Below, piece after piece: positions 8,300 through 44,298 of a DNA stretch of 64,000 bases. The first letter of the stretch is position 1; each line of letters opens with the position of its first letter. Source of the DNA: Flavobacteriales bacterium (GTDB lineage Bacteria; Bacteroidota; Bacteroidia; Flavobacteriales_F; PHOS-HE28); NCBI GenBank assembly GCA_016788295.1, contig JAEUSY010000051.1, forward strand, positions 1 to 64,000, given 5' to 3'. The position numbers and the translations under genes were made by a program. The notes beneath the pieces were generated by a model. The model made no database searches and was not told where the DNA came from. It saw nothing but the letters and a program-made list of their open reading frames with translations.

Positions 8300-8950
8300 T
8301 CAGAGCTTGTTGCCGTAGGCGAGATCACCCGCATCACCTAATCCGGGAACGATGTAGGCCTGTGCGGTCATCTCCTCATCGATGGCCCCGATCCAGAAGC
8401 GCGTACCCGGCGGCAGGTGCAGCTTGGCGTACTCCAGCCCTTCGGCACTGGCAATGGCCGATGCGACATGCAGGGCTTTGGGGCGCCCCAGACGGAGCAG
8501 CGCCTTGTACACCAGCACCATGCTCTGTCCGGTGGCAAGCATGGGGTCGCACAGGATCACCACACGGTCCTCCAGGGATGGACTGGACAGGTACTCCACT
8601 TGGATCTCGAATGAATCCTCGCCCTTGCGATGCTTGCGATAGGCGCTCACGAACGCACTGTCCGCGCGGTCGAAGTAGTTGAGCATGCCTTGGTGCAGCG
8701 GAAGGCCCGCACGCAGGATGGTGGCCAGAACGGGTTGTTCCTTCAGCAGGTCCACATGCGCCACGCCCAAGGGTGTGGTCACATCGCGCTGCTCGTACTC
8801 TAAGGTGCGGCTCAGTTCGAGGGCGATGACCTCGCCAACACGCTCCAGGTTGCGACGGAACCGCATGGGGTCCTTCTGCACGTTCACATCGCGCATCTCA
8901 GCGAGGAAATGCCCGACCACGCTCCGTTGTTTCACCAGTTCCAACACCAT
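8300..8950 (-). CDS. upp: Uracil phosphoribosyltransferase
   Basis: 216 residues. It salvages uracil to UMP using PRPP. The PRPP loop VVILCDPMLATGQSM and the C-terminal uracil-binding GDAGDLAYG are intact, with LATILRAGLPLHQGM in the middle, as in type I UPRTases. It begins 7 bases after the FemAB-like gene stop, so a housekeeping salvage enzyme is carried at the tail of a surface-polysaccharide operon. It is followed by a membrane protein and a nucleotidase-like HAD, giving a small nucleotide-linked end of the array. Confidence 0.95.
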   Translation of the reverse strand: MVLELVKQRSVVGHFLAEMRDVNVQKDPMRFRRNLERVGEVIALELSRTLEYEQRDVTTPLGVAHVDLLKEQPVLATILRAGLPLHQGMLNYFDRADSAFVSAYRKHRKGEDSFEIQVEYLSSPSLEDRVVILCDPMLATGQSMVLVYKALLRLGRPKALHVASAIASAEGLEYAKLHLPPGTRFWIGAIDEEMTAQAYIVPGLGDAGDLAYGNKL

Positions 8951-8957
8951 GGGACCA

Positions 8958-9860
8958 TCATCGTTTAAGCCAACGCAACGGCACGGGAAGTGCGTTCCTC
9001 AGCAGGTGTAAATATACCGTTGACCGCGCACCGAAGCCCGCATTGAAGCGCGCCACGGAAGGTGTGTTCGAGCCAGCGAAGTCCAAGAGCCGGATATCGG
9101 ACTTGGCGGTGGCAAGGTACTCGTCGATGAGGAGGAACATGGCATGCAGTTCCTGTCCACGTGCAGTGCTGGCCGACTTGAGCAGTATGGCCCGCCCGTC
9201 CCATTCCGCAAAGCAGGCGGCCGCTTGAAACACTCCGTGCTCCTTTATGCCGAGCATCCGCACATCACCCCGCGCTATACCGGCGGCGATAATGTGGTGC
9301 ATCATCACGAGGCTCCGCTCCGGAACTCCGTAGCGTGCGGCCGTGGTGCTGCGGAAAAGTGCGGTGAAGCTCGATGCTTCAATTTCCCATGTGAGCAGTT
9401 CCCTTGCAGCCTCAGCCTTGCGCAGATTGCGTCGATGTCCTTGCGAATAGCCTGCACGCTGGGCCTCCGCATCGTGCAGCACATCCAGCACCTGCTGTGT
9501 GCAAGGCTCCGTGCGTCCGATGGCAATGTCGGTCATTGCCTCATGGAGGTAGATGTCCCAATAACGATACTGCGCCGGCACCGCGGAAAGCATGTCATTG
9601 TCCAGATCCCGGTCACGCATTGGTGCGAACACGCCGAGCTGCTGCAGTCCGAACGGTTGGTGCAGGTAATGGATGCCCAAACGCGTGCGCCACGTGAGCG
9701 GCATCAATGCACCTCGCTCACGGTCCACCATGGCATTCCATCCGGGTGATGCGATATCGAGCACCCAGCTCTGCGCGTACCACGTGGGATCAACGCAACG
9801 CGAAAGCTGCGCATCCCACCACGCCTTGTCGATACCGCTATGTTCAAGATGCTCGATCAT
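8958..9860 (-). CDS. FemAB/GNAT-like acyltransferase
   Basis: 300 residues. The layout matches the Bacteroidota group related to FemAB peptidyltransferases: an N-terminal GNAT-like half, then GHRRNLRKAEA (about 140) and the C-terminal LLDFAGSNTPSVARFNAGFG motif. FemAB-type enzymes transfer an aminoacyl or acyl group onto amines of cell-wall or glycan precursors. Its ATGA overlaps the stop of the deacetylase-like gene by 4 bases. In this operon it is a candidate to transfer the group activated by the adenylation/carrier pair, an inference from position only. Confidence 0.72.
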   Translation of the reverse strand: MIEHLEHSGIDKAWWDAQLSRCVDPTWYAQSWVLDIASPGWNAMVDRERGALMPLTWRTRLGIHYLHQPFGLQQLGVFAPMRDRDLDNDMLSAVPAQYRYWDIYLHEAMTDIAIGRTEPCTQQVLDVLHDAEAQRAGYSQGHRRNLRKAEAARELLTWEIEASSFTALFRSTTAARYGVPERSLVMMHHIIAAGIARGDVRMLGIKEHGVFQAAACFAEWDGRAILLKSASTARGQELHAMFLLIDEYLATAKSDIRLLDFAGSNTPSVARFNAGFGARSTVYLHLLRNALPVPLRWLKR

Positions 9861-11158
9861 GAGCGTGCATGGGCGACCACGGTGTTCAATGCTTCAGGCC
9901 AACCACGCCAAGCCGCATATCCGCTAAGGAAGCGATCGTGCCACACGCTGACGAAGGTGCCCTTCACTGCGCGCACCGCATCGCTGACCGCGCACATGGT
10001 TCGGGCAGCGTCCTCGGGGCCCATACCCATGCGGTCGTGCAGCGCACTGTCCATCACGGCAAAGGGCCATAGCATCAGGTCGGTCTCGCGTTCGTGCTCC
10101 AGGTCGTACCACGGGAACGGCGTGCAGGTGCCTGCCCGGAATCCGGGGCGATCACTGAAACCCAGCGTATGGTCCTCGGTGAACGCCTGATCGTTCAAGT
10201 AGGCCAATGTACCGGGGAAGCGCCAACGCAGGAAATGCTGGCGATTGATGCGCACCGGATGCTTCACGATGCCTTCCAAACGCGCGCGATCTTCCTTTGC
10301 AATGGCGTGGTCCGCGCTGCTGGCGTAAGAAGGGTGAAGCCCCACATCGAAGGCTTCGTCCATCTCGACGACCCGCTTTCGCATCAGTGCATGCCGATGA
10401 TCGGATGCGTGGTCGAAGGCACCTTCACCACGCATCAACAAAAAGGCGATCAACCGATCAACCTGGCCCGACCTTGTCAGTTGCACCAACCTGTCGTAGC
10501 GATCGAAGGGGTCAGGCGCTCGGCCGGACAGCACCCGAACACGAGTGCTCACCTCGGCGAGATCACCTTTGATGAGCCCGCGAACGATGGTGCCCGCCTG
10601 CTTCCAACCCGGCCTGCCGAGGACCATTGTCCCGTTGTCCACATCAACGGTCATTACGTGGCGGTAGGTAGTGGTCGGCTCCGGCAGCTCCGGAAAACGT
10701 GCGCGCAATGCACCGACCAGTCGCCACATCCAATGATCGATCACCGGTAGTTGCTCGAACCCATGGCGTACCGCGAAATGCGCGTCCGAAGGCAAACGCC
10801 CATGCACATCGTGATGCGTAGCAAGGAACTCCTCACACCGCGAAAGCAGGTAAAAGGTGCCGGCCACGGGATCATCGCCGGCAGAGGAGGGATACAGTAT
10901 CGGAATGCCTGCCTCCATGCCTAATGAAGGTTCTTCGAGCACATTGCCCGTGGGTGCCAGTGCGCCCGATGCGTGCAACACCAATGCTGGATCGTTCGCA
11001 TCTGCACGAGCACCATAGCGCAACTTGGGCAGCGTGGTGCTCCTGAACTCCTCTTCGGAAGTCGCGAACTCCATGGACCAACCCGTCATGCGGCCCAGCA
11101 GGTGCTTCAGTGCGTACTGCGCACGAGGTGAGGGATCATCGACCCTGATGAGCAGCAT
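9857..11158 (-). CDS. Polysaccharide deacetylase-like protein (DUF7033 type)
   Basis: 433 residues. Segments resemble the Bacteroidota deacetylase-like family with an N-terminal DUF7033 region: GIPILYPSSAGDDP and GTFYLLSRCEE, then the core with MTVDVDNGTMV (Asp pair), FDVGLHPSYAS (His), RQHFLRWRFPGT and FRAGTCTPFPWYDL. NodB-family enzymes remove acetyl groups from amino sugars using a metal; the Asp and His residues here are plausible ligands. No signal peptide is seen. It overlaps the AAC(3)-like gene by 23 bases and the FemAB-like gene by 4. Glycan modification is the likely role. Confidence 0.75.
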   Translation of the reverse strand: MLLIRVDDPSPRAQYALKHLLGRMTGWSMEFATSEEEFRSTTLPKLRYGARADANDPALVLHASGALAPTGNVLEEPSLGMEAGIPILYPSSAGDDPVAGTFYLLSRCEEFLATHHDVHGRLPSDAHFAVRHGFEQLPVIDHWMWRLVGALRARFPELPEPTTTYRHVMTVDVDNGTMVLGRPGWKQAGTIVRGLIKGDLAEVSTRVRVLSGRAPDPFDRYDRLVQLTRSGQVDRLIAFLLMRGEGAFDHASDHRHALMRKRVVEMDEAFDVGLHPSYASSADHAIAKEDRARLEGIVKHPVRINRQHFLRWRFPGTLAYLNDQAFTEDHTLGFSDRPGFRAGTCTPFPWYDLEHERETDLMLWPFAVMDSALHDRMGMGPEDAARTMCAVSDAVRAVKGTFVSVWHDRFLSGYAAWRGWPEALNTVVAHARS

Positions 11159-11990
11159 GGGGCAACAGGGACTTGGCAGAGCGCGAAGCCCCGCGTGATC
11201 GAAGGAGAGGTCTCAGCGTATCGCGCAACCACAGGTCGAGGCTGAAGTGATGGATACTTCGTGCCCGGTTGTTCCGGATATCGTTGGCCACTGCGGCATG
11301 CGCTCCGTCCAGATCGATCATCAATGCAGCTGTGCCGTCAACATCCAGTTGACGCATCACGTCCGCACTGACCAACAAGGGTTCCAGATCGTGCAACACG
11401 TTGCTGTGCCCATGGCGTTTGGCGAAGCGCTTGAATTCCTTGGCGACCGATGGTCCCGACCCATCGCTCACATGCAACACCAACCGCTCCCAACGGCGAT
11501 AATTCACGTGCTCCATCTCCTCCACATGGTGCACATAGGTAAAGGAATCGTTCAACGAAAGATCGATCGCGACCTGCACGGCCTTATGTTCTCGAAGCAA
11601 CGCGAATACGGAGCGTGGACCGAAGCTGCTCACATCATCCGCCTGAACGAACTCGTTCACCAAAGCACCGGATACAGCGAACGAATGCAACGGGTGTGAG
11701 GTCCTGCGGAATGCCGGATGGGCCATTGCCGCAATGCCAAGAGCGCCGGTGATGGGTGGGGTCCGAAGCGGGTCATACGCTTCACCGGAACGAAGATCAA
11801 AGTTGTAAGTAGGCACCAGCACCGTGCCCTGTGGTCCCACTACATCAGCGAACGCATCGAGCAGTCCGGCAGCGCTGAACGCATGGCCTGACCTGCGGGC
11901 ACGCCATGCCATTCGGGTGAGATCGGCCATGAGCACCACCACCATGCCTGGCCTTAGGCCACACGTACGGGGTAGTTCCTTCAGGTCCAT
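11136..11990 (-). CDS. AAC(3)-family N-acetyltransferase, probably glycan-modifying
   Basis: 284 residues from the ATG at 11988-11990, 4 bases after the GNAT stop. The family signature of aminoglycoside 3-N-acetyltransferases is present: LRPGMVVVLMADLT, GPQGTVLVPTYNFDLRSGE, TGALGIAAMA and RTSHPLHSFAVSG with the conserved His. Members found in surface-glycan clusters acylate amino sugars, and the setting here points that way and not to drug resistance. The open frame extends 75 codons further upstream inside the GNAT gene, but homology starts at MDLKEL. Confidence 0.82.
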   Translation of the reverse strand: MDLKELPRTCGLRPGMVVVLMADLTRMAWRARRSGHAFSAAGLLDAFADVVGPQGTVLVPTYNFDLRSGEAYDPLRTPPITGALGIAAMAHPAFRRTSHPLHSFAVSGALVNEFVQADDVSSFGPRSVFALLREHKAVQVAIDLSLNDSFTYVHHVEEMEHVNYRRWERLVLHVSDGSGPSVAKEFKRFAKRHGHSNVLHDLEPLLVSADVMRQLDVDGTAALMIDLDGAHAAVANDIRNNRARSIHHFSLDLWLRDTLRPLLRSRGASRSAKSLLPHAAHQGR

Positions 11991-11994
11991 GAGA

Positions 11995-12471
11995 TCACCC
12001 GTTGCGCATTTGAAGAAGCTCCACCGCGAATCCCATGGAACGCCAGAACCGCAGGCCTTCATCGTTGCCCACAACGACCTGAAGCTCGATGGAAGAGACC
12101 TCCTTGGCCGTGAACCACGAACGCAGCTCAGCCACCATCTCCTTCCCCAGCCCTTGCCCACGCAATGCGGGATCCACAAAGACATGCGTAATGTGACCCA
12201 AGCGCACGCCACCAAGATGCTCGGGTGCGAGCTTCACCGCGCCGTGAGCGAATCCGACCACTGTACCATCGCGTTCCGCCACCACCAAGCGCCCAAAGCG
12301 CTCAGCGTTCCTTGCGGCATCCTCCACCCATTTCGACGCACCTCCGGGAACCAGTTTTAACTGCATGCCTTGGGCCTCCATGCCGTGATGCATGACTTCG
12401 AAAAGAACAGGCAGTTGAAGCAGCGCGGGATCATCGCTCGACCGGATACAACGGATATTGGCGCGTTCCAT
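11995..12471 (-). CDS. GNAT family N-acetyltransferase
   Basis: 158 residues. The acetyl-CoA loop is clear: ITHVFVDPALRGQGLGKEMV (motif A, R/QxxGxG/A), with EGLRFWRSMGFAVE as the closing motif B. It should acylate an amine using acetyl-CoA or another acyl donor. It lies 3 bases after the carrier-protein stop and 4 before the AAC(3)-like start. Together with that gene and the FemAB-like protein it makes three acyltransferases in one operon. The acceptor is unknown. Confidence 0.85.
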   Translation of the reverse strand: MERANIRCIRSSDDPALLQLPVLFEVMHHGMEAQGMQLKLVPGGASKWVEDAARNAERFGRLVVAERDGTVVGFAHGAVKLAPEHLGGVRLGHITHVFVDPALRGQGLGKEMVAELRSWFTAKEVSSIELQVVVGNDEGLRFWRSMGFAVELLQMRNG

Positions 12472-12474
12472 GCT

Positions 12475-12723
12475 TCAGGTGAAGAGGTCCAACAAGCCGC
12501 CGATGGTGCTCGCCTTGCGGTCCTCCAAGGCGTTCTCCAGGTCTAGTTCCTTGCCCGTTGCATCCATCAGGCCGGCCATCAGGTCAACGAAGGAGAGCGA
12601 ATCAAGCACACCCGATCGCAAAAGGTCCAGATCATCGGTCAACTCGGCATTGGTGAGCCCGAGCGCGCTCGAGCGACCTTCGATCCGCTTGCACAAGAGG
12701 GCTCGCAATTCCTTTCTATCCAT
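12475..12723 (-). CDS. Acyl/peptidyl carrier protein
   Basis: 82 residues from the ATG at 12721-12723, overlapping the adenylation gene by 8 bases. The phosphopantetheine site is GVLDSLSFVDLM with Ser in DSL. It is shorter than a full NRPS module and acidic around the site, like DltC. As the immediate partner of the stand-alone adenylation enzyme it should carry the activated acid as a thioester. A longer frame start (12765) would sit inside the adenylation gene. Confidence 0.88.
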   Translation of the reverse strand: MDRKELRALLCKRIEGRSSALGLTNAELTDDLDLLRSGVLDSLSFVDLMAGLMDATGKELDLENALEDRKASTIGGLLDLFT

Positions 12724-14200
12724 TCTGGGCAAGTGTGATAAGCGCCTTCCGGTCGAGCTTACCATGCGGACCGTAGGGGAAGGCTTCGACCTGTATGATG
12801 CGCGCTGGGACCATGTGCTCTGGTAGTCGTGACCTTAACGCGGCGAACATCGGTTCGGTATCCGCAGGCACGTCGATAAAAGTAACCAGCCTCAACCCGC
12901 CTTCAAGTTCCACGGCCACCGTGGCAGTGTTGCCGCCGTTCAGCAAGGGCTGCAGCACGGCATCCACCTCACCGGGTTCCACGCGGTGCCCGTTCAGTTT
13001 CACCTGATCATCCATCCGGCCTGTGAAATGCATCACGCCATCGGCATCCATGCGCACACGGTCGCCTGTGCGGTACCAGCGCACCTCATCAGGTCCGAGC
13101 GAATGGAAGCAACGTTCAGTGGCCGCTTCATCATTCAAGTAGCCTGCGTTCACCTGGGGCCCGGCCAGCACCAGCTCCCCTTCCCCCACAAGGGATGGCA
13201 TATCGTCATTCAGGACCTGTGCGTGATGGCCGGGGAACACCCTGCCCAATGGCACCACTTCGTCCGTTCCATCCAGCACAGCAGATGTGAGCGGTTGAAC
13301 AGCAATGGCGATGGTGGTCTCCGTTGGACCATACAAGTTGTAGGAGGCCGCCGATGGCACTGCATGGCACCAACTACGCGCGACCACTGTTGAAAGGGCT
13401 TCGCCACAGAAGAACGCCAGCCGCAGACCAGGCATACACCCCGGCACCAGACTGCGCATGCGTCGCATCAACGCGACCTGCGAGGGCACCGAGAACCAGA
13501 CCGATATCCGCTGCTCACGTACGTAGGAAACTGCGCGTAACACCGCGTCCGAGGGTGGCACGCACAAACACGCGCCCGCTCCCCAGCAGACGAACAGATC
13601 GTGCACGCTCAGATCGAACGAAAGCGCGAAGAACTGCGTGAACCGGTCCGTGTTCGTGAATGGGAAAGCACGCGCGACATGACCGAGATAGGCTGCCAAT
13701 TGCGCGCGACCCACCGGTACACCCTTGGGAACACCTGTGCTCCCCGATGTGAACATGAGGTAGGCCTCAGGACCAACATGCACTTCGACAATTGGCGCCA
13801 GGGCTTGGAACGCATGTTCATCAACCACCTTGAACGAGGGCGGCAATGAAACGGAGGAAGCGTGTTCCGATGTACAGAGCACCGTGCGCACCGCTGCCCT
13901 ATCAAGCATGGTGCACCAACGCTGCGGAGGATGCTCCGGATGCAATGGAACGTAGGACCTGCCCGAGCGGAGTATGCCGAGGATGGCCGCATAGGCCCAT
14001 ACAGTTCTGGCACCATGCACAGCAATGCGATCCTGACCGGAGCAATGTGCGTTGCACCAAGCCGCCACCTGAGCAGCAAGCCTGTCGAGCTCTGCGTATG
14101 ACCACTCCGTGTTGCCTATGGAAAGCGCAGGACGATCAGGAACCGCATGCACGGAACGAAGGAACTCTGCGATCGGATCGAACGTGCGGTCAACCACCAT
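12716..14200 (-). CDS. Stand-alone amino-acid adenylation enzyme, DltA-like
   Basis: 494 residues. ANL superfamily core motifs are in order: LMFTSGSTGVPKGVP (A3), ALSFDLSVHDLF (A4), NLYGPTETT (A5), YRTGDRVRMDADG (A7), FTGRMDDQVKLNGHRVEPGE (A8) and GPHGKLDRKAL (A10 Lys). The Asp in FDLS corresponds to the residue that grips the alpha-amino group in amino-acid adenylating domains, and FDLSVxDL is close to DltA. There is no condensation, thiolation or thioesterase domain. It should load an amino acid onto the adjacent carrier protein. The specific amino acid is not deduced. The start follows the toroid gene stop by 5 bases. Confidence 0.85.
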   Translation of the reverse strand: MVVDRTFDPIAEFLRSVHAVPDRPALSIGNTEWSYAELDRLAAQVAAWCNAHCSGQDRIAVHGARTVWAYAAILGILRSGRSYVPLHPEHPPQRWCTMLDRAAVRTVLCTSEHASSVSLPPSFKVVDEHAFQALAPIVEVHVGPEAYLMFTSGSTGVPKGVPVGRAQLAAYLGHVARAFPFTNTDRFTQFFALSFDLSVHDLFVCWGAGACLCVPPSDAVLRAVSYVREQRISVWFSVPSQVALMRRMRSLVPGCMPGLRLAFFCGEALSTVVARSWCHAVPSAASYNLYGPTETTIAIAVQPLTSAVLDGTDEVVPLGRVFPGHHAQVLNDDMPSLVGEGELVLAGPQVNAGYLNDEAATERCFHSLGPDEVRWYRTGDRVRMDADGVMHFTGRMDDQVKLNGHRVEPGEVDAVLQPLLNGGNTATVAVELEGGLRLVTFIDVPADTEPMFAALRSRLPEHMVPARIIQVEAFPYGPHGKLDRKALITLAQNG

Positions 14201-14205
14201 TCGGC

Positions 14206-15390
14206 TCAATAACGGGGCATGCTGCCCTCGGCGCAAAGTAGGGCATCGGCCAGGTACTTCTGCGCCCAGTTCGGGCAGGCGAACTTTTCATAGCGCCCCC
14301 ATAGCGGGAACGAACCAGTGACAGCACCATGCATATCCATCGGCCCCTTGCACGAAAGTGCCTGCACGGCCAACAGCCAACGCACCATACGGACACAGCC
14401 CTGCTGCCAGGCAACATCGCCGGTCAGTGCATGTAACCGGGCCCATGCGATGGCCAATTGCGCACAACCGGTGTTGATGGCCGCTTCGCTGCCAATCCAA
14501 TGTGCATCGTACCTGCCGTTCAGAACACCATGCTGCATGAACCTTTCGAGCAGCACACGCGCTGGTCGTTCGGCCGCTTTCAAGTACGAAGCGTCGCCGG
14601 TGTGTACGTGACACTCGATAGCTCCATCGATGGTATAAGCGATCGTATGGGTGATGGGACGGTCGTTGTGCTTGCGTGTATTGTCCGCATCGGCGAACCA
14701 CCCGTTCGCGGCCTGCCTGGAAAGCACCCACTCCAGATTGCGCAGTGCTGCAATACGATAGGTCTCATTCCCCGTCCGCTTGGCCATGTGAAGGAGCGGT
14801 GCGCTCACGTAGGTATCGTACACGCGTCGCTCGCCAAGGAAATTGTGGCGTGCCCAAGAACCATCAGGTTCCTGTACCTCCACGATCCAGTCGCACGCAC
14901 GGATGGCTGCATCGCGGTAACGCTTGTTTCCCGTTGCGTCCTCGGCGGCCATCATTCCTCGTACCACTTGGGCCGTATTGAACACCACCGCCGGTCGCTC
15001 CTCTCCTACACGACCACCCTGCCAGCCACCCTCCTTGCGTTGGATCCCAACAAGCCAATCCGCTGCTTCAAGCGCTCGCGAACGAAGGTCATCACGTCCC
15101 GTACGTTCGGCTGCCGCGAGCATGGTCGGTATGATATAGCCCGTGGTCTCCGGATAGGAAGCGCCCCAGCCATGCACAAGGTGGTAACTGCCCATGCCCC
15201 GATCGACGCCACTATCCTGGGCACGCGCCAAGTGGTCCATCACCTCGATCAATGCCATGGGCAATGCTTCGTCCAACGGACCTTCAAACGAGTGTGATCC
15301 GCGCGCATGCGTAACAACAAGCTTCCGGACATCGCTATCCATCAGTCCGGTCGCGAACAACCGTGCATATTGGACCAATGAGCGTATCAC
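14206..15390 (-). CDS. Alpha/alpha-toroid (six-hairpin) protein, possibly glycan-active
   Basis: 394 residues from a GTG that overlaps the wecB stop as GTGA. Regularly spaced helical repeats end in aromatic motifs: WLVGIQRKEGGW (about 115), CDWIVEVQEPDGSWARHNF (about 165), NLEWVLSRQAANGWFAD (about 220) and RMVRWLLAVQAL (about 340). These mark an alpha/alpha toroid as in six-hairpin glycosidases and polysaccharide lyases. No signal peptide is evident, so it would act in the cytoplasm or on lipid-linked glycans. Catalytic residues cannot be named. An ATG at 15342 is the alternative start. Confidence 0.65.
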   Translation of the reverse strand: MIRSLVQYARLFATGLMDSDVRKLVVTHARGSHSFEGPLDEALPMALIEVMDHLARAQDSGVDRGMGSYHLVHGWGASYPETTGYIIPTMLAAAERTGRDDLRSRALEAADWLVGIQRKEGGWQGGRVGEERPAVVFNTAQVVRGMMAAEDATGNKRYRDAAIRACDWIVEVQEPDGSWARHNFLGERRVYDTYVSAPLLHMAKRTGNETYRIAALRNLEWVLSRQAANGWFADADNTRKHNDRPITHTIAYTIDGAIECHVHTGDASYLKAAERPARVLLERFMQHGVLNGRYDAHWIGSEAAINTGCAQLAIAWARLHALTGDVAWQQGCVRMVRWLLAVQALSCKGPMDMHGAVTGSFPLWGRYEKFACPNWAQKYLADALLCAEGSMPRY

Positions 15391-16538
15391 CTGCGTGAAG
15401 TACTGTTCAAAAGCTCGGCACAAATGCGTTCAGCCGCATGGCCATCGCCGAACAATGGCTTCACTGCGGGCATGCCACTCGCAAGGAAATGGCGCCCAGC
15501 TTCAGCAATGCGCATGGGGTCCGCATCGGCCAAACGCGCCTGGCCATTAGCGACCAGTTCCACCCACTCCGTTTCCGGGCGAAGAATGACACAAGGCACT
15601 CCGAAGAAGTAGGCCTCCTTCTGTACACCGCCGGAATCGGTCATCACCAAACGGGCATGTTTCTCCAAGGCGATCATGTCCAGGAAACCGGCCGGCGGTA
15701 CCACGTGAAATCCGGTCGCTCGTTCGATACGGGCGGACAATTCAGGTGCAAGCAAGGCATTCATGCGTTGCCGGGTGCGCGGGTGCAACGGCAGGATCAC
15801 ATCCAGACCATGCTCCTCGTGGGCATGCAGCAGGGCGCCCATTACGGCATTGAGGCGCGCGGGATCGTCCGTGGTATTGTCGCGATGGACCGTGGCAAGG
15901 ATGTAACCTCCCTTGCGCACCCCGAGCTCTGCAAGTATGGCGCTCCGCTGCTCCGCTATGGAAGCGAAGTGCATGCTGTTATCATACATCACATCGCCGG
16001 ACAGAAGCACATGCGGTCGGTCCGCTGTGGGAGCATGTTCCGTTGACAGATCGAACCCTTCGTTACGGAGGTTGTCCACTGCGGTCTGCGTGGGACAGAA
16101 GAGCCATGTGCTGCAGTGGTCGCAGACGATGCGATTGACCTCTTCGGGCATGGCCTTGTTGAAGGACCGGAGTCCGGCCTCGACATGCGCCACAGGTATC
16201 CGCAGTTTGGCGGCGGCCACGGCACCGGCCAATGTGCTGTTGGTATCGCCATAGAGCAGGACCGCATCAGGCTTATGCTCCAGAAGAGCGGCCTCCACCC
16301 CTTCGATCATACGCGCGGTCTGCACGCCATGGCTGCCGGAGCCAACGCCCAACGCGATATCGGGCCGTGGAATGCCCAGTTCATCAAAGAAGACCTGCGA
16401 CATGTTGGCATCGTAGTGCTGCCCGGTGTGCAGGATGGTCTCGCGTATGGGTGATCCTGGTAGTGAGGCGATGGCGCGGCTCATGGCCGCGGCCTTGATG
16501 ATCTGGGGACGCGCCCCGATAATGGTGAGCAGGTGCAT
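15387..16538 (-). CDS. wecB: UDP-N-acetylglucosamine 2-epimerase (non-hydrolysing)
   Basis: 383 residues. It interconverts UDP-GlcNAc and UDP-ManNAc, a precursor for surface polysaccharides. Family motifs are plain: TIIGARPQIIKAAAMSRAI, LHTGQHYDANMSQVFFDELG, YGDTNSTLAGAVAAAKL, HVEAGLRSFNKAMPEEVNR, ATVHRDNTTDDPARL and VMTDSGGVQKEAYFFGVPC. All are at full length. It begins 12 bases after radC and overlaps the toroid gene. Its product would suit the WecG/TagA-type transferase at 19059-19829. Confidence 0.95.
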   Translation of the reverse strand: MHLLTIIGARPQIIKAAAMSRAIASLPGSPIRETILHTGQHYDANMSQVFFDELGIPRPDIALGVGSGSHGVQTARMIEGVEAALLEHKPDAVLLYGDTNSTLAGAVAAAKLRIPVAHVEAGLRSFNKAMPEEVNRIVCDHCSTWLFCPTQTAVDNLRNEGFDLSTEHAPTADRPHVLLSGDVMYDNSMHFASIAEQRSAILAELGVRKGGYILATVHRDNTTDDPARLNAVMGALLHAHEEHGLDVILPLHPRTRQRMNALLAPELSARIERATGFHVVPPAGFLDMIALEKHARLVMTDSGGVQKEAYFFGVPCVILRPETEWVELVANGQARLADADPMRIAEAGRHFLASGMPAVKPLFGDGHAAERICAELLNSTSRR

Positions 16539-16550
16539 TCCTCTCTACGA

Positions 16551-17258
16551 TCAAAGCATGCCGTTGTCGGCGAAACTGTAATAGCCCGTACCTGCTACGA
16601 TCAGGTGATCATGCACGGCAATGTCAAGCAGCCGCCCACCCTCCACCAGTTTGCGGGTCAAACGAATATCCTCTTCACTGGGGCGTAGCTGGCCGCTGGG
16701 ATGGTTGTGGCAAAGCACCACGCTGCTGGCGCGATGATCGAGCGCTTCGCGGAAGATGAGCTTCGGATCGGCCACGGTGCCATGCATGCCGCCTTGGCTC
16801 ACCTTGCAACGGCGCAACAGGCGGTTGCCTCGATCCAGCAGGATCAACCAGAACTCTTCATAGGGCAGGTCCTCCAAAACATCGCGCACCAGCTCGTAGG
16901 CCGACGCGCTCGTGGCGACGGTGCTCCGTTCGCGGGGCTCCACATCACGGCGTCTCCTGCCCAGTTCCAACGCGGCCACTATGGTGATGGCCTTGGTCTC
17001 ACCAAGGCCGCTCACCTTCATGCGGCGCAGGTCCGATACGCCCAAGCGACCCAGCTTGTGCAGGTCGTTCTCCGCATGCTTCAGAATGGCACGGGCCACT
17101 TCAATGGCATTGTTGGTGGTGCTGCCACTGCGAATGAGGATGGCAATGAGCTCGGCGTCGCTTAGGGCAGCCACCCCCTTGCTCAGGAGCTTTTCACGCG
17201 GACGATCGTCCTCGGCCCATTGGGCGATGCTCGGCTTTCGCGGTCCTACGGTCTCCAT
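16551..17258 (-). CDS. radC: RadC family JAB-domain protein
   Basis: 235 residues. An N-terminal helix-hairpin-helix-like region (LLSKGVAALSDAELIAILI, LRRMKVSGLGETKAI) is followed by the JAB metalloprotease-like domain with CHNHPSGQLRPSEEDI, the HxHx10D metal motif. The family was named for DNA repair but its biochemical role is unsettled. It is the first gene of the array running to 7108. Directly upstream lies the hairpin after rpsT, so its promoter would have to overlap or follow that hairpin. Confidence 0.92.
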   Translation of the reverse strand: METVGPRKPSIAQWAEDDRPREKLLSKGVAALSDAELIAILIRSGSTTNNAIEVARAILKHAENDLHKLGRLGVSDLRRMKVSGLGETKAITIVAALELGRRRRDVEPRERSTVATSASAYELVRDVLEDLPYEEFWLILLDRGNRLLRRCKVSQGGMHGTVADPKLIFREALDHRASSVVLCHNHPSGQLRPSEEDIRLTRKLVEGGRLLDIAVHDHLIVAGTGYYSFADNGML

Positions 17259-17693: not shown

Positions 17694-18836
17694 TCAATAG
17701 GCATTGGGATCCTTGCCGAACATGTTGGTCACGGTCTTCACCACAATGCGCAGATCGAGCCAGAACGACCAGTTCTCCAAGTACCACACGTCCAGTTCCA
17801 CACGACGCTCCATCAATTCGGGGGTCTGCGTTTCACCCCGGAAACCGTTCACCTGTGCCCATCCAGTGATGCCCGGACGAACGAAGTGACGCACCATGTA
17901 CTTGTCGATGATATCGCGGTACTGGTCGTTGAGGCGCAGCGGGTGCGGACGGGGACCCACCACGCTCATGTGCCCGAAGAGCACGTTGAGGAACTGCGGC
18001 ATCTCATCCAAGTTGCTCTTGCGAAGGAAGCGCCCAACAGCTGTGACCCGTGGGTCGTTCTTGGTGGCCTGCTTCACATCGCTCTCCTTGTTCATGCGCA
18101 TGCTGCGGAACTTCCAGCACACGAATTCCTTGTTGTCCTTGCCCAAGCGCATCTGCTTGAAGAACACTGGACCCCGACTGGAAAGCTTCACCAGGATGGC
18201 AAGCAAGGGGAACAGCCAACTGAAGATGAACACGATGACACCGAGCGAGAACACGATGTCGAACGCGCGCTTCATGCGGCGGTTCATGGTGCGGTCCAGC
18301 GGCTCGCGACGCAGCTTGCTCACGGGCACGGCGCCATGGAACTCCAGATCGGTGGTCTTCACCACGGGGATGAAGCTCTCGGCACTGGGTATGACTCGGA
18401 AGCGGATGGTGTTCCGCTCGCAGAACTCCATCAACTCCGTGATGTCCTGGCGGCGTGTACCGGGCAGTGCGCAGTAAACGATGTCGATGCGGTTCTGGAT
18501 GGCGTAAGCCTTGGCAGCCTCCACATCACCCACACGACGGGCACCCAACGCACCATTTACAGGCGCGTCATTGAACAGGCCGCAGAAACGATATCCGCGT
18601 ACGGTCTGGTCCTCGCAGTATTGGAAGATCTCCTCAGCAGCAGGGCCATCACCAACAATAATGAGGTCTTTGACCGTGGTCAACGGCTCGAGGGTGAGCA
18701 CCCTGTTGATCCCGGTCTGCACGTTCTGAATGGATAAGCGGCTTGAGCGCAGCAATGTACTGAGTTCCGCACCAAGCTCGGCCGACCCTGCTCCCCCTAC
18801 TATCGCTCCATCCTTCGCGGTAATGGTCTTCTCCAT
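17694..18836 (-). CDS. Polyprenyl-phosphate sugar-1-phosphate transferase (priming glycosyltransferase)
   Basis: 380 residues from the ATG at 18834-18836. It should transfer a sugar-phosphate to undecaprenyl phosphate, starting repeat-unit synthesis. A Rossmann-like CoA-binding region begins at VKDLIIVGDGPAAEEIFQYC (about 55). The catalytic part begins after one hydrophobic segment (RAFDIVFSLGVIVFIFSWLF) with GPVFFKQMRLGKDNKEF, WKFRSMRMN, LRKSNLDEMPQFLNVLFGHM, VGPRPHPL and RPGITGWAQVNGFRG. Relatives of about 460 residues start with four or five membrane helices; here that bundle is replaced by about 50 polar residues. The promoter lies 40 bases upstream. Confidence 0.9.
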   Translation of the reverse strand: MEKTITAKDGAIVGGAGSAELGAELSTLLRSSRLSIQNVQTGINRVLTLEPLTTVKDLIIVGDGPAAEEIFQYCEDQTVRGYRFCGLFNDAPVNGALGARRVGDVEAAKAYAIQNRIDIVYCALPGTRRQDITELMEFCERNTIRFRVIPSAESFIPVVKTTDLEFHGAVPVSKLRREPLDRTMNRRMKRAFDIVFSLGVIVFIFSWLFPLLAILVKLSSRGPVFFKQMRLGKDNKEFVCWKFRSMRMNKESDVKQATKNDPRVTAVGRFLRKSNLDEMPQFLNVLFGHMSVVGPRPHPLRLNDQYRDIIDKYMVRHFVRPGITGWAQVNGFRGETQTPELMERRVELDVWYLENWSFWLDLRIVVKTVTNMFGKDPNAY

Positions 18837-18875
18837 GTTCCTGTGCGTTGATCCCCATCTTCCGTCCGGGGAGTC

Positions 18876-18883
18876 CAAATGTA
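18876..18883 (-). promoter_or_regulatory. Promoter -7 box of the priming transferase
   Basis: The minus strand reads TACATTTG, with TTGAC 21 bases upstream as a fitting -33 element. CGTCGA repeats overlap the spacer and the region just upstream. Confidence 0.72.
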
Positions 18884-18890
18884 TCGTGGT

Positions 18891-18937
18891 CGTCGAAGAA
18901 AAGTCAAGTTCGTCGAAATTATTTAACCATTCGTCGA
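18891..18937. promoter_or_regulatory. Three CGTCGA repeats at 20-21 bp spacing (candidate operator)
   Basis: CGTCGA occurs at 18891-18896, 18911-18916 and 18932-18937, in the contexts GTCGTCGAAG, TTCGTCGAAA and TTCGTCGACA. Spacings of 20 and 21 bases place the copies on one face of the helix. The first lies in the promoter spacer and the second just upstream of the -33 element. The same hexamer occurs twice, 20 bases apart, at 22052-22077. Confidence 0.5.
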
Positions 18938-19058
18938 CATGCTACAGCTTTCAAATTCGCCTTTTCGGCCGCATGGACCCGTATTCCGGACCCTTCTTTT
19001 CAACTGACCGCCAGCGAGTTATAACACCCTTGCACCCAACGAAGCACCTCACCATCAC

Positions 19059-19829
19059 CTATGCCACGTCGGACGTTCGTCGAAGCATTGCCTTCAAAAC
19101 GAGGAACAAGAAGATCGTATTGGTGACGAGGTAACGCTTCCAGAGCCTCCGGGGCTCCAACCAAAGTCGGTAGAGCCACTCCAGCGATAGGTCGCGCATC
19201 CATTTGGGAGCACGCGTATCCATGCCAGCGTAGAGCAGGAACGCCCCGCCGAGGCCGAGCATCACGGCATTCACCCTGCCCTTCATGGCCGCCATCCAGC
19301 GCTCCTGCTTGGGGCAGCCCAATGAGACCATGACAATATGGGCACCTGTTCCGTTGATGCGAGCGGCCTCCGCATCCATGTCCAAGGCCTCCAACGGGCC
19401 AAAAGGTGGCGCGTAGGTCCCGGCGAAACGAATTCCCGGTATCTCTTTGACCGCGCGTTCCACCATGCGCTGTTGCACCTCGGCTGATGCACCGTACAAG
19501 TAGACCAATAGTCCCTCGCGGGCGGCTTTCTCAAGGAGGGCTGGCAGGATATCGTTCCCGGCCACACGTTCTTGACCCACCTTGTGGAATGCGTTCAGCA
19601 CTTTCACCACCGGCATGCCGTCCGCGGTGGCAAGGTCCGCTTGGTTGACCACCTTCGCGAAGGCTTCATCACGTGCTTCCACGGTCATGTGGGCATTCAC
19701 GCAGCACACATACGATGACCGGTGAGCAGCGCCGAGGTCGGCCATGGTATTGATCTGGTCCTGGAACGACCCCAATGTGATGTCGGCCGTCAATACCCTG
19801 CGCTTGGGCGGATGAACCGGAATGTCCAT
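19059..19829 (-). CDS. WecG/TagA/CpsF-family glycosyltransferase
   Basis: 256 residues. The GT26 family adds ManNAc or ManNAcA (or related sugars) to a lipid-linked GlcNAc. Signatures: VCCVNAHMTVEARDEAF, ATADGMPVVKVLN, RVAGNDILPALLEKA, VYLYGASAEVQQRM, GTYAPPFGPLEA, and VMVSLGCPKQERWMA with LGLGGAFLLYAG. All catalytic-region motifs appear intact. It overlaps the epimerase gene by one base. The wecB product UDP-ManNAc, made in the neighbouring operon, is a natural donor. Confidence 0.9.
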   Translation of the reverse strand: MDIPVHPPKRRVLTADITLGSFQDQINTMADLGAAHRSSYVCCVNAHMTVEARDEAFAKVVNQADLATADGMPVVKVLNAFHKVGQERVAGNDILPALLEKAAREGLLVYLYGASAEVQQRMVERAVKEIPGIRFAGTYAPPFGPLEALDMDAEAARINGTGAHIVMVSLGCPKQERWMAAMKGRVNAVMLGLGGAFLLYAGMDTRAPKWMRDLSLEWLYRLWLEPRRLWKRYLVTNTIFLFLVLKAMLRRTSDVA

Positions 19830-20842
19830 TACCGGTCGGCGTTCTTTTGGCGTACATCCTTCAGCACCGGCGCTACGATGCGCTCACTACCGTTATCGTA
19901 CCAGCGCACCATGGCCTTCACTCCTTCCTGCATCGTCCATGGCGCCTCACCCACCACCTGAATGGTCTTGTCCATGGGCGTTACATAGTCGCTGGTCATG
20001 CTTCGGAAGCGACCACTGGAAATGGGGAACGGGATACGCACAGCCTTGAGGACATCGCCTCCCAAGGCCAATAACCGGATAAGTCCTGTGGGGATGTACC
20101 GCACCGGCTTGCCCGTGAGCTCCTTTGAAACGACCTCCACCCATTCCTTCAGATCGAAGGGACGATCGCCCACATAAAGGACCTGACGATCCACCAAGGC
20201 ACGGGGCAAGGTCAGCATGCGATCGATCTGCCAGACCACATTACCTACATATCCATAGCTGCGGATCACGCGGCCCTTTCCAGGATGGAAGTACAGCCCT
20301 TTGCGCATCACTTTGAACATGACATCGCGGTATCGCAATGACCACGGCCCCCAAATAGTCGTGGGCCTGATGATGGTCCACGCGCAGTTCAGCTTGGCCT
20401 CACGCGTCACCATCTCCGTCCTCCGCTTCGATTCGCCATACACGGTGAACGGCTTGAAATCGAGGTCGTGCGCGGGTTGGTAGCCGGCCTCGCAAACGAA
20501 CTGTGTGCTGGTGACAATGATGCGTTCGATGCCGGGGTGTTGCTTCACCACCTCCAACAGTATCCGTGTGCCCTCATGGTTCTGGCGGTAGGCATCCACA
20601 TCCACCAGCTCGTCCGTATCGGTGCGGGCCGCAAGGTGAATGACGTGCGTGGGCCCGAAGTCCTTGAAGGCCTTCTCCACAGCGGCCTGGTCCATGATGT
20701 CCAGCTCACGCCAGTAGGGCCGTTGGTCCGGATCGAGTGGAGGGTTCCAGTCGATGTTCATCAGCTGAACACCGCGCTCCCGATAGAACGCCACGAGATT
20801 GGTGCCGATAAAACCGGACCCGCCGGTAACGAGAATGCGCAT
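19829..20842 (-). CDS. NAD-dependent epimerase/dehydratase (extended SDR)
   Basis: 337 residues. The NAD-binding GGSGFIG is at residues 7-13, HLAARTDTDE follows near 70, the catalytic YGESK near 135, and RPTTIWGP near 160. It would act on a nucleotide sugar or lipid-linked sugar in polysaccharide synthesis. It lies between a GT4 and a GT26 transferase in one transcript. Substrate and exact reaction (4-epimerase, dehydratase or reductase) cannot be fixed from the sequence. Confidence 0.88.
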   Translation of the reverse strand: MRILVTGGSGFIGTNLVAFYRERGVQLMNIDWNPPLDPDQRPYWRELDIMDQAAVEKAFKDFGPTHVIHLAARTDTDELVDVDAYRQNHEGTRILLEVVKQHPGIERIIVTSTQFVCEAGYQPAHDLDFKPFTVYGESKRRTEMVTREAKLNCAWTIIRPTTIWGPWSLRYRDVMFKVMRKGLYFHPGKGRVIRSYGYVGNVVWQIDRMLTLPRALVDRQVLYVGDRPFDLKEWVEVVSKELTGKPVRYIPTGLIRLLALGGDVLKAVRIPFPISSGRFRSMTSDYVTPMDKTIQVVGEAPWTMQEGVKAMVRWYDNGSERIVAPVLKDVRQKNADR

Positions 20843-20850
20843 GGTTCTAA

Positions 20851-21981
20851 TTACTGCTCAAACAGTGCCATCAGTTCACGTTCCATGGCACGGTGAAAGG
20901 CGTTCAACGTAAATCGTTCCTGAAAGATGCGTCGTCCGGCCTCGCCCATGGTAATTCGCAACGCAGGGTCGCCCGCCAGCTGGACCAATCGATCGGCAAC
21001 GGCGTCCGGGGCCTGGATGGGGACCAGGTATCCGTTGACACCGTCCGACACGACAGAAGGAATTCCGCGCCATTGGGTGGAGACCACTGGTTTGGCGAAC
21101 TGCATGGCCTCGGCCAACACAAGGCCAAAGCTCTCCGCCTCGAAATAGGAGGGGAAACAAAAGATGTCGCAGGCAGCGAAACAGGCGAACTTCTCCAGGT
21201 CCCGTTTCACACCGAGGAATTCCACACGGGCCTCGAGGCCATGTTCCGTAACAAAGCCGCGCACTTCCGCCTCGAAACCTGCATCGCCCCACTTTCCCAT
21301 GAGCTGTAGTCGTGCATCAACACCGCTTGAGACGACCGTATGGAAAGCCTGCAACAGCACGCGCACACCCTTGCTGGGAATGAGCACCCCTGTGAACAGT
21401 ATGACCAATGGCTCTCCGGGGCCGGCCCTGCGCTCAGGGACCCGACCACGCACGTCCTCAATACCGTTCGGCACCACCACGTTCCTGGCCGCCCCCAAGG
21501 CCAACCCATCGTCCGGATTCTGTGGTGCGGTTCGAATGGCCAGTGCGGGCCTGCCATAGGCATAGCGGAACAGTGGACGTAACGCACTGGGCAAGGCGGG
21601 CGCGAACGTGGACACCCCGCCTGCATGGAAGTGGAACACCACTTTGCGGAACAACCAGCGTGTGGCGCAAAGAAGTACGATATCGCGCAGCACGGGCACC
21701 TTGTTGGGGCCACTGGGCGGATAATAAAGCACAGGCGTGCGCCACCGGAAACGGGCCCACCAGATGTGCAGGATGGTGGTGAACAGTACCCACACCTTGC
21801 GGAAGGCGAACTTGCCCACGCTCTCCATGTCCTCCGAGAACGCCATACGCACATGGAACAGGAGTATGTGTTCGAACCGACCCAGCAGGAGCTTTTCGAT
21901 CATTACGGCCTGCCCCCCGAACGGAGGTGGGGTCTGGCCCACCACGAGGATACGGTACCGGTGCGTGTGCATGAACGGCAA
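20851..21981 (-). CDS. Glycosyltransferase family 4
   Basis: 376 residues. GT-B fold motifs: LVVGQTPPPFGGQAVMIEKL near the N-terminus, then LVILFTGVLIPSKGVRVLLQ (donor-side start), VEFLGVKRDLEKFACFAACD and the E(x7)E segment EAESFGLVLAEAMQFAKPVV. It should transfer a sugar from a nucleotide donor to a lipid-linked acceptor at the inner face of the membrane. It is the first gene of the block ending with the WecG-like gene. Transcription begins in the 173-base region shared with the divergent beta-helix gene. Confidence 0.9.
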   Translation of the reverse strand: MPFMHTHRYRILVVGQTPPPFGGQAVMIEKLLLGRFEHILLFHVRMAFSEDMESVGKFAFRKVWVLFTTILHIWWARFRWRTPVLYYPPSGPNKVPVLRDIVLLCATRWLFRKVVFHFHAGGVSTFAPALPSALRPLFRYAYGRPALAIRTAPQNPDDGLALGAARNVVVPNGIEDVRGRVPERRAGPGEPLVILFTGVLIPSKGVRVLLQAFHTVVSSGVDARLQLMGKWGDAGFEAEVRGFVTEHGLEARVEFLGVKRDLEKFACFAACDIFCFPSYFEAESFGLVLAEAMQFAKPVVSTQWRGIPSVVSDGVNGYLVPIQAPDAVADRLVQLAGDPALRITMGEAGRRIFQERFTLNAFHRAMERELMALFEQ

Positions 21982-22051
21982 AACTACCCGGCGCCCATCT
22001 CAGCGCTCCGCTGCACGCCCCAGCTCCATCAACAGCCAGCCGTTGAGCATT

Positions 22052-22077
22052 CGTCGACAAAATCGCAGATACGTCGA
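22052..22077. promoter_or_regulatory. Two CGTCGA repeats 20 bp apart (candidate operator)
   Basis: CGTCGA at 22052-22057 (TTCGTCGACA) and 22072-22077 (TACGTCGAAA) lie between the divergent GT4 and beta-helix genes. Spacing and flanks match the set at 18891-18937. No exact TAnnTTTG box was found in this region on either strand. Confidence 0.45.
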
Positions 22078-22154
22078 AAAAGAGAGCCTTTCTGTCGGCT
22101 TCTAGTAACACAAAATGGGCATGTCGGGTTGAACGACCCCAAAGCAACGGACCC

Positions 22155-24890: not shown

Positions 24891-24907
24891 GGACATGAGC
24901 AAGAATG

Positions 24908-24936
24908 AACACCCTCCCCAGACCGGGGAGGGTGTT
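24908..24936. terminator. Bidirectional hairpin between the beta-helix and polymerase genes
   Basis: AACACCCTCCCC and GGGGAGGGTGTT pair perfectly over 12 bp with a 5-base loop. It lies 18 bases after the beta-helix stop and 20 before the convergent gene's stop. Neither side has a long T tract, so termination strength is uncertain. Confidence 0.65.
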
Positions 24937-24956
24937 CGCGTTCATGGCCTTATGTG

Positions 24957-26237
24957 TCAGGTCACTTGCAGAGGCAGGTCCGGTGCTCGCGGTTTGAGAC
25001 ACAGCGGGGCCAACATGCAGAATAGAATAGAGTGCCCGATATCCACGCCATAGCAGAATATGTCGATCTGCCAGATGAAAAGAATATAGACCAGGCCGGC
25101 GAACATCGGGGCGTACCGGGTCCCTTGGAGGTACTCTTGACGGTAGTACTTGAAGGCACGCCAGAGGATCACATATAAAAGCACCACACCGAACACCCCC
25201 TGGGCAGTGAGCACTTCGGTGAACGTACTATGCGAATGCAGGTTGTACGCGTGCGGCTCGCCCCAAAGCACAGCGACGAAATCGAGCAGATGCAACTTGT
25301 AATGACCCTTGTATCCATTGCCGAACAAGAGCCCTGTGCGATCATAGAAGGCCCAATCGGCAACAGCGTTCCAGATGTAGCTGCGACCATTGAAGGTGGT
25401 GACGTCCTCCTTGGACACGCGCTGGAGGATGCTCACGAAGAACGGCGTGCTGAGCACTTGGTAGACCAAGAGCGAAAAGCTCAGGAGCAAAGGCATGGTG
25501 AACAACGATATCGTGTAGAGCCCCTTCGCGAGCTTGACGGCACGGGTGAGGAACAACACGGCCAGCAAAAGGAAGATCATGAAGGAAAGACGGCTGTTGA
25601 TCTTCACCATGAAATACAGCCCGATGCCCAAAGCGGCCAGAACAAGCGCATAGGCCACCGGCCTTCCCCGCACTGAACCCAGCTGATACAAGCCCATCAG
25701 GCTGATCACAGAAAGCACATGGGCACCGGTGTAGATACCGCGCATGAAGGGAAAATTGGCTCTTCCTTCGAAACTGTGCCCGTAAGCCTGCACGCCGCCG
25801 AAATAGCCCAGGATATTGATGCCCACCAGGAGCATGAGGCTCTTCAGCAACAACCCGGCGAAATTGAATTCAGGATCGTCGCGGTTGTAGAAGTTCACGA
25901 TAACGGCGGACAGGAACGGCATGAGGAAGACCATGCAAGACAACAGGACGTTACCCGGATTCAGACCCGGGATACCGTTTCGAAGTCCCACGAACATGGA
26001 CACCACGAGGGTGGCGATGTAGAGCATGCAGAGCCACCAGGTGCGCGTCAACAAGTTGCCCACGCGTTTGCGATAAAGCGCATCCACGAGATAGATCAGC
26101 ACGATCGCCAGAAAGGGCGTCGAGGTAACGATCATGCCCTTGGATATACCCTGCTTGAGTCCGATATAGCTACCTATACCGAACAAGGGGAAGCCCACAA
26201 GGAAGAGGGCATTGACCAGTTGGTTCTTGCGGATCAC
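24957..26237 (-). CDS. O-antigen polymerase/ligase family membrane protein (Wzy-like)
   Basis: 426 residues with about eleven hydrophobic segments. A large extracytoplasmic loop near residues 265-340 contains FNGRSYIWNAVADWAFYDRT, LLFGNGYKG and NLHSHSTFTEVLTAQGVFG, the Wzy_C/O-antigen ligase pattern with the conserved Arg and His. It should polymerise repeat units or join the polymer to a lipid carrier in the periplasm. It is the last gene of the Wza-Wzc block, 31 bases after a glycosyltransferase. Polymerase is favoured because Wzx and Wzc are in the same transcript. Confidence 0.85.
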   Translation of the reverse strand: MIRKNQLVNALFLVGFPLFGIGSYIGLKQGISKGMIVTSTPFLAIVLIYLVDALYRKRVGNLLTRTWWLCMLYIATLVVSMFVGLRNGIPGLNPGNVLLSCMVFLMPFLSAVIVNFYNRDDPEFNFAGLLLKSLMLLVGINILGYFGGVQAYGHSFEGRANFPFMRGIYTGAHVLSVISLMGLYQLGSVRGRPVAYALVLAALGIGLYFMVKINSRLSFMIFLLLAVLFLTRAVKLAKGLYTISLFTMPLLLSFSLLVYQVLSTPFFVSILQRVSKEDVTTFNGRSYIWNAVADWAFYDRTGLLFGNGYKGHYKLHLLDFVAVLWGEPHAYNLHSHSTFTEVLTAQGVFGVVLLYVILWRAFKYYRQEYLQGTRYAPMFAGLVYILFIWQIDIFCYGVDIGHSILFCMLAPLCLKPRAPDLPLQVT

Positions 26238-26268
26238 AGGTTCGGCGAACGGGCAGGTGGCCCCGCTC

Positions 26269-28520: not shown

Positions 28521-28522
28521 GC

Positions 28523-29866: not shown

Positions 29867-29881
29867 GCTCTGGTACGACCG

Positions 29882-32227: not shown

Positions 32228-32230
32228 GGT

Positions 32231-44273: not shown

Positions 44274-44298
44274 GCGGCGCATCATGGCAGAATCGTGG

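Follow-up and report, generated by a model that had tools for sequence, protein, structure and literature searches.

A stretch of 64,000 nucleotides from a Flavobacteriales bacterium (assembly GCA_016788295.1, contig JAEUSY010000051.1, positions 1 to 64,000; hereafter the window) contains an operon of eight minus-strand genes at 8958-16538, flanked by radC and upp, in which neighbouring genes overlap or are separated by gaps of 12 bases or less. In the interpretation that we prefer, and to which we give about an even chance, the operon represents the Wbp/Vim amino-sugar pathway in a variant form, to which an optional (N-acetyl)aminoacylation module is added. The gene set, its order and its conservation, the co-segregation of toroid, module and deacetylase type, and the presence of type IX secretion system (T9SS) and Wbp-type genes were observed directly. 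The order from radC to upp is epimerase, toroid, adenylation enzyme, carrier, GNAT, AAC(3)-like enzyme, VimE-like deacetylase and FemAB-like protein, as follows:

16551..17258, minus strand: radC, upstream border of the putatively exchangeable locus (PF04002, 139 bits)
15387..16538, minus strand: WbpI-like UDP-GlcNAc(3NAc)A 2-epimerase (8sxv match; epimerase_2; TIGR00236, 290 bits)
14206..15390, minus strand: (alpha/alpha)6 toroid protein with the motif YPETTGY (AlphaFold2 model and fold comparison)
12716..14200, minus strand: stand-alone amino-acid adenylation enzyme, pocket code DLHFFCLIAK (TIGR01733, 337 bits, over cut-off)
12475..12723, minus strand: carrier protein of 82 amino acids, phosphopantetheine site Ser42 in GVLDSL (PF00550, over cut-off)
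11995..12471, minus strand: GNAT acyltransferase of 158 amino acids (PF00583, 59 bits)
11136..11990, minus strand: AAC(3)-like acyltransferase of 284 amino acids (PF02522, Antibiotic_NAT, 74.5 bits)
9857..11158, minus strand: VimE-like de-N-acetylase with a DUF7033 domain (NF053580, 138 bits, E 2e-40)
8958..9860, minus strand: predicted FemAB/VimA-like aminoacyl transferase (PF13480, Acetyltransf_6, 22.6 bits; fold match)
8300..8950, minus strand: upp, downstream border of the putatively exchangeable locus (NF001097, 192 bits)

Gene starts were refined by homology and placed at GTG 15390 for the toroid, ATG 12723 for the carrier and ATG 11990 for the AAC(3)-like gene. From GTG 15390 the toroid gene overlaps the epimerase stop by 4 bases, and the spacing of 12 bases or less presupposes this start; the carrier start at 12723 gives an 8-base overlap with the adenylation-domain (A-domain) gene. 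In family scans the operon showed neither a condensation nor a thioesterase domain, and no DltB or DltD gene lay between radC and upp. An initial annotation, made from the sequence without database searches, had described this gene set, its tight spacing, the A-domain Asp and the absence of these four components, all of which was borne out by the family scans and alignments; it had also placed an A-domain of amino-acid type and a dedicated carrier within a surface-sugar pathway, and this stood too, with TIGR01733 over cut-off and the set conserved in relatives. A nonribosomal peptide synthetase (NRPS) was rejected as the identity of the operon on account of the missing condensation and thioesterase domains.

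The sugar genes were compared with solved structures and family models. The epimerase scored 385 bits against 8sxv, a UDP-2,3-diacetamido-2,3-dideoxy-glucuronic acid 2-epimerase, and 256 bits against the next structure, 4neq, a UDP-N-acetylglucosamine 2-epimerase; this gap of about 130 bits favours WbpI, and the generic WecB label of the initial annotation was rejected. The search for linking-sugar precursor genes covered WbpA, WbpB and WbpD, and WbpD/WlbB-, WbpB/WlbA- and WbpA/TviB-like genes were found adjacent to one another at G000:C39 in the source genome. The best relatives of these Wbp-like genes were 3q2i (209 bits, next unrelated 76) and 3mqg (246 bits, next 139), structures which we take to be WlbA and WlbB, and the WbpA-like gene, which is truncated, matched the TviB model at 347 bits. 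In the genus the WbpD-like gene belongs to the core (37 of 45 genomes, 75-92% identity), and G042 has neither it nor the deacetylase. Since a WbpD-like gene occurs in module-bearing and module-less genomes alike, a role of the AAC(3)-like enzyme as a replacement for WbpD was disfavoured. Together, the operon and the WbpA/B/D-like genes of the genome resemble the Wbp/Vim pathway type more closely than a generic pathway of capsule or WecB kind. Of the capsule or O-antigen pathway proposed earlier, the surface-sugar part was upheld, and the generic type gave way to an apparent Wbp/Vim type, one tied to the T9SS.

The deacetylase scored 138 bits against NF053580, under the VimE equivalog cut-off of 440 bits, although its membership of the family is clear (E 2e-40), and residues D172, H275, R306 and H308 are invariant in 32 sequences. 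The model of the FemAB-like protein (predicted local distance difference test score, pLDDT, 95) matched Sbb17, an aminoacyl-tRNA-dependent peptide synthase, with Z 23.0 over 264 residues at a root mean square deviation of 2.9, and FemX/FemA with Z 21-22.6, against about 13 for generic GNAT and N-myristoyltransferase folds. VimA itself matches the pep-cterm FemAB family (PMC7468200). The source genome encodes PorU (1252 bits) and at least 150 cargo proteins with a T9SS C-terminal domain (Por_Secre_tail matches). Among 296 Bacteroidota genomes, counted without regard to kinship, VimE-like genes were present in 35 of 45 genomes with FemAB-like genes and 53 of 251 without, and PorU in 41 of 45 and 157 of 251, respectively. 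The order radC-(wbpI)-deacetylase-(FemAB) was found in other families also. As a separate observation, three Por_Secre_tail cargo genes lie in the window, at 22155-24890, 33252-35435 and 42768-44309.

Conservation of the locus was examined in 45 genomes of the genus, which vary in completeness and have some loci split over contigs. Epimerase, deacetylase and FemAB genes were near-universal, and the toroid and the A-domain-carrier-GNAT-AAC(3) module were optional, with both present in 24 genomes, neither in 17 and a partial set in 1-2. In state A (17 genomes including that of the window) the order of the eight genes from radC to upp is kept. The identity of their A-domains to that of the window is only 45-60%, so the arrangement is not due to chance. 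In state B (7 genomes) the locus consists of epimerase-toroid-deacetylase-FemAB, and a divergent A-domain-carrier-GNAT-AAC(3) block is located elsewhere, unlinked. State C (17 genomes, G035 being on a short contig) has epimerase-deacetylase-FemAB only, and no close A-domain relative was found elsewhere in these genomes. Genomes G031 and G042 were left outside the state counts. radC and upp border the locus in the relatives too, and the radC border recurs in other families. Joint conservation of the gene set, which the initial annotation had named beforehand as a check, was found both in the genus and in Bacteroidales, and rare co-occurrence was refuted.

The association of toroid and module gave a Fisher p of 7e-11, a value that is overstated because the genomes are related. 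On the radC+upp tree the toroid followed the module in about four of five supported pairs and opposed it in none. This tree requires 8 changes of module state, the FemAB tree 4 and the epimerase tree 5. A single branch of the deacetylase tree sets the module-less proteins apart, with a Shimodaira-Hasegawa-type approximate likelihood ratio (SH-aLRT) support of 100, and the split keeps a support of 98-99 after the addition of 31 outside proteins; the tree divides exactly by module presence, in keeping with the inclusion of a deacetylase in the system by the initial annotation. The FemAB data reject module-less proteins as one clade (approximately unbiased, AU, test p 2e-42). As the FemAB gene is as near to the deacetylase gene as the toroid gene is in state B, linkage alone does not explain the contrast between the trees. 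We infer that the deacetylase works with the toroid and the module and that the FemAB-like protein serves a step common to all states. In G032 the epimerase is like that of its state-C neighbours (81%), whereas the deacetylase and FemAB-like protein are of the window lineage (62-66%, against 40-44% to the neighbours); this mixed ancestry points to cassette exchange within the radC-upp locus, as far as sequence relationships can indicate it.

The adenylation enzyme and carrier are strongly conserved at their functional positions. The Asp of FDLSVHDL was invariant in 17/17 A-domain sequences, as were pocket residues D196 and C265 of the adenylation enzyme, and the LDS of the carrier was invariant in 16 sequences. 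The code DLHF(F/A/L)CLIAK has one variable position in 17 sequences and holds across the genus, the unlinked modules and Bacteroidales. In DltA, an Asp holds the amine and a Cys sets the chirality of alanine (PMC4176424), and equivalents of both are present in the pocket described here. Such a pocket Cys was found in 0 of 24 A-domains of long (NRPS-size) open reading frames (ORFs), two cassette A-domains in long frames excepted, and standalone, carrier-linked A-domains mostly have it. The enzyme scored 247-249 bits with DltA models, under their cut-offs of 476 and 560, and 167 bits with TIGR03098, the XrtA-associated ligase (cut-off 592). Our best guess from the code is that the substrate is alanine, possibly D-alanine, or another amino acid of comparably small size. 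N-acetyl-D-alanyl and N-acetyl-L-alanyl amino sugars occur in O-antigens (PMC3210612).

Other A-domains were noted in the same genus. Genomes at L057, L058, L063, L064 and L065 have a second stand-alone A-domain cluster of Dlt-like appearance, consisting of an A-domain, a GNAT of about 220 amino acids, a carrier of 80 amino acids and an MBOAT/DltB-like protein; its A-domains share about 34% identity with the enzyme of the window, and in some of them the code is DLMLLCVIFK. NRPS-type ORFs with A-domains (about 1320 and 2180-2200 amino acids) recur in most genomes of the genus, and two strong PP-binding domains were located at G000:C50 in the source genome.

Relatives of the toroid protein were collected by a pattern scan of genome contigs, which returned 468, and 80 toroid loci were read. 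A GNAT was present in 22 of the 27 loci with an adenylation-like gene and in none without one; of the five adenylation loci lacking it, two were cut by contig ends and three had ligases without the amino-acid Asp. On the strength of this co-occurrence we propose the carrier-bound amino acid, at its amine, as the target of the GNAT. An AAC(3)-like gene was near the toroid in 44 of the 80 loci. Drug resistance was rejected as the function of this gene, which scored at most 31 bits with AAC(3) models (cut-offs at least 270) and is fixed in a sugar operon. The AlphaFold2 model of the toroid (pLDDT 97) is an (alpha/alpha)6 barrel whose nearest solved folds are unsaturated glucuronyl hydrolase (Z 33.4) and the cellobiose/GlcNAc 2-epimerases (Z about 31). 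Glucuronyl hydrolase-like and epimerase-like folds score nearly equally, so a single named identity was dropped and no reaction is given to the protein.

Outside the genus, metagenome-assembled genomes (MAGs) of Bacteroidales have toroid-A-domain-carrier-GNAT-AAC(3)-deacetylase-FemAB in identical order. In six Bacteroidales loci (L260, L262, L266, L267, L259 and L261) an extra VimE-like deacetylase gene precedes the acylation module; a second deacetylase was seen downstream as well in four of the six, and the upstream type clusters with the module-less deacetylases of Flavobacteriaceae. Schleiferiaceae/Cryomorphaceae have toroid-AAC(3)-short-chain dehydrogenase/reductase (SDR)-deacetylase-FemAB, without A-domain or GNAT. 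A toroid gene and an AAC(3)-type gene are also present in Thermaurantimonas aggregans (L273), a relative that can be cultivated. In Alkalilimnicola and an Ectothiorhodospiraceae MAG the toroid is clustered with an XrtA polysaccharide deacetylase (over cut-off), an asparagine-synthase-type amidotransferase (TIGR03108-type in L315), a TIGR03098-type ligase and a FemAB-like gene, and in a Rubrivivax MAG it accompanies AAC(3), FabA- and FabH-like genes. The A-domain-carrier-GNAT-AAC(3) core was found beside NeuB and cytidylyltransferase genes at L219 and beside cytidylyltransferase (CMP-sugar) genes at L220. The former, a Flavobacteriaceae cluster of nonulosonic-acid type, has the four-gene module at L219:8064-11100 with a DUF4910 gene, and its differing code, DLHCVCVVSK, suggests another amino acid.

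In Porphyromonas and Tannerella, VimE, VimA and WbpA/B/E/D, together with an epimerase in some species, make a sugar that is amide-bonded to the C-terminus of T9SS cargo (PMC7468200). The linking sugar is 2-N-seryl-3-N-acetylglucuronamide in P. gingivalis and 2-N-glycyl-3-N-acetylmannuronic acid in T. forsythia (PMC7468200), and an N-alanyl deoxyhexose in Prevotella intermedia, which is without VimA/VimE (PMC11969387); T9SS linking sugars are thus on record with Ser, Gly or Ala (PMC7468200, PMC11969387). For the operon described here, the chemistry is proposed at every step, and so are the identities of amino acid and sugar product and the anchoring of T9SS cargo by that sugar. Judging by gene presence, the genome-encoded WbpA/B/D-like enzymes would make UDP-2,3-diacetamido-glucuronic acid, which the WbpI-like enzyme, by its family, would epimerise. 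The VimE-like deacetylase, given its family and invariant residues, would free an amine, and the fold of the FemAB/VimA-like enzyme suggests that it adds an amino acid from aminoacyl-tRNA. In T9SS bacteria this free amine is the site at which PorU attaches cargo, and by analogy PorU could act likewise on the present sugar. In the module, family and code indicate that the adenylation enzyme may charge the carrier with alanine, perhaps in the D form, or a similar small amino acid, which the GNAT would then N-acetylate; the AAC(3)-like enzyme is predicted to move the (N-acetyl)aminoacyl group onto an amine, either of the sugar made by the base pathway or of one next to it. Some sugar-handling step on which the module seems to depend would fall to the toroid. 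The existence of relatives with and without the block suggests that the anchor sugar comes in exchangeable chemical versions.

Several results weigh against this interpretation. At 138 of 440 bits the orthology of the deacetylase to VimE is not clear from sequence, and the likeness of the FemAB-like protein to VimA is one of family and predicted fold. PorU is lacking in 12 of the 88 Bacteroidota genomes with VimE-like genes and in 4 of the 45 with FemAB-like genes. In the genus, G027 possesses toroid and AAC(3) but no A-domain; G018 is perhaps similar, its contig ending at the AAC(3) gene. The radC+upp tree provides only five supported independent pairs (p 0.125), so independent switches are few. 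Finally, the occurrence of the four-gene module in NeuB and CMP-sugar clusters shows that it is not specific to linking sugars.

This last result also favours a possible, though less probable, alternative, the model of the initial annotation, in which the carrier-bound amino acid ends up on an amino sugar in the repeat unit of an O-antigen or exopolysaccharide, unconnected with protein anchoring. A Wzx/Wzc/WcaJ polysaccharide locus is directly upstream and aminoacyl amino sugars are common in O-antigens; the anchor is favoured, however, by the finding of WbpI-, VimE- and VimA-like genes combined where the genome also encodes PorU and at least 150 cargo proteins. The two models overlap, since the linking sugar of P. 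gingivalis itself belongs to an O-polysaccharide (PMC13086638). It is improbable that the carrier-loaded amino acid is the donor for the FemAB-like protein, the A-domain replacing aminoacyl-tRNA in a VimA-type reaction. The adjacency of the genes, the known transfer of amino acids by FemAB-type enzymes and the silence of PMC7468200 on the source of VimA's amino acid (tRNA, acyl carrier and adenylation are unmentioned) agree with such a donor, but 16-17 genomes of the genus have deacetylase and FemAB-like genes and no A-domain module at all, the FemAB tree is indifferent to the module, the fold resembles the aminoacyl-tRNA-dependent FemX, and the four-gene core also occurs without an adjoining FemAB. 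The FemAB-like protein, which the initial annotation had counted among the acyltransferases of the system, was therefore downgraded and is probably not the partner of the carrier. Production of a small secreted peptide or amide, unrelated to the neighbouring sugar genes, appears very unlikely: A-domain and carrier belong to families typical of peptide synthesis, but a condensation or thioesterase gene is missing, toroid, deacetylase and FemAB genes surround the block both in the genus and in Bacteroidales, and the deacetylase type follows the module.

Type IX secretion joins cargo to the surface at the amino acid of the linking sugar. Where this amino acid comes from in the known pathway, and how diverse it is beyond a few oral species, are matters not discussed in the literature covered, and no adenylation-carrier-AAC(3) sugar pathway was found there (open-licence papers only). 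The locus offers named genes, a predicted substrate pocket and natural genome pairs with and without the module, which make the chemistry directly testable. The toroid family, with hundreds of relatives, connects T9SS-bearing bacteria with exosortase-type polysaccharide clusters. A broader and rather doubtful extension is that type IX, and perhaps exosortase, anchor sugars are built by exchangeable cassettes, with the radC-upp locus switching like a serotype locus; swappable acyl-supply modules (adenylation-carrier for amino acids, SDR/fatty-acid-type enzymes for other acyl groups) would, with a shared toroid and AAC(3)-like transferase, set the acyl group.

Upstream of radC the window contains the polysaccharide locus, which was annotated from NCBIfam matches:

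17697..33010, minus strand: polysaccharide locus with WcaJ, WecG/TagA-type transferase, Wzx-like flippase, Wzc-like protein and polysaccharide export protein

The T9SS-type cargo gene at 22155-24890 lies within it on the opposite strand (Por_Secre_tail at C13:24663-24884). G+C content at third codon positions was 0.64-0.69 in the cassette genes (carrier 0.76) and 0.73-0.77 in the immediate flanks. A promoter and terminator scan gave a site count no higher than in shuffles.

The operon was compared with four known systems. With Dlt D-alanylation it shares a stand-alone adenylation enzyme with a separate carrier and the pocket Asp and chirality Cys; unlike Dlt, it has AAC(3)-like and GNAT enzymes instead of DltB/DltD, and it scores under the DltA cut-offs. 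Exosortase A (XrtA/PEP-CTERM) clusters (Alkalilimnicola L315, L301) have in common with it a deacetylase, a FemAB-like protein, an AMP-forming ligase and a toroid relative. Their ligases lack the amino-acid-binding Asp, for which reason exosortase membership was rejected, and no GNAT relative was found in them. The N-acetyl-D/L-alanyl amino sugars of O-antigens (Pseudoalteromonas, Aeromonas; PMC3210612) represent the chemistry predicted for the module; there the groups are on 6-deoxy amino sugars, and their biosynthetic genes were not found in the literature searched. Compared with the Wbp/Vim system of P. gingivalis and T. forsythia (PMC7468200), the operon is located between radC and upp, has a deacetylase under the VimE cut-off, and adds the toroid, adenylation enzyme, carrier, GNAT and AAC(3)-like enzyme; common to both are a WbpI-like epimerase, a VimE-family deacetylase, a FemAB-type transferase, WbpA/B/D-like enzymes and a T9SS.

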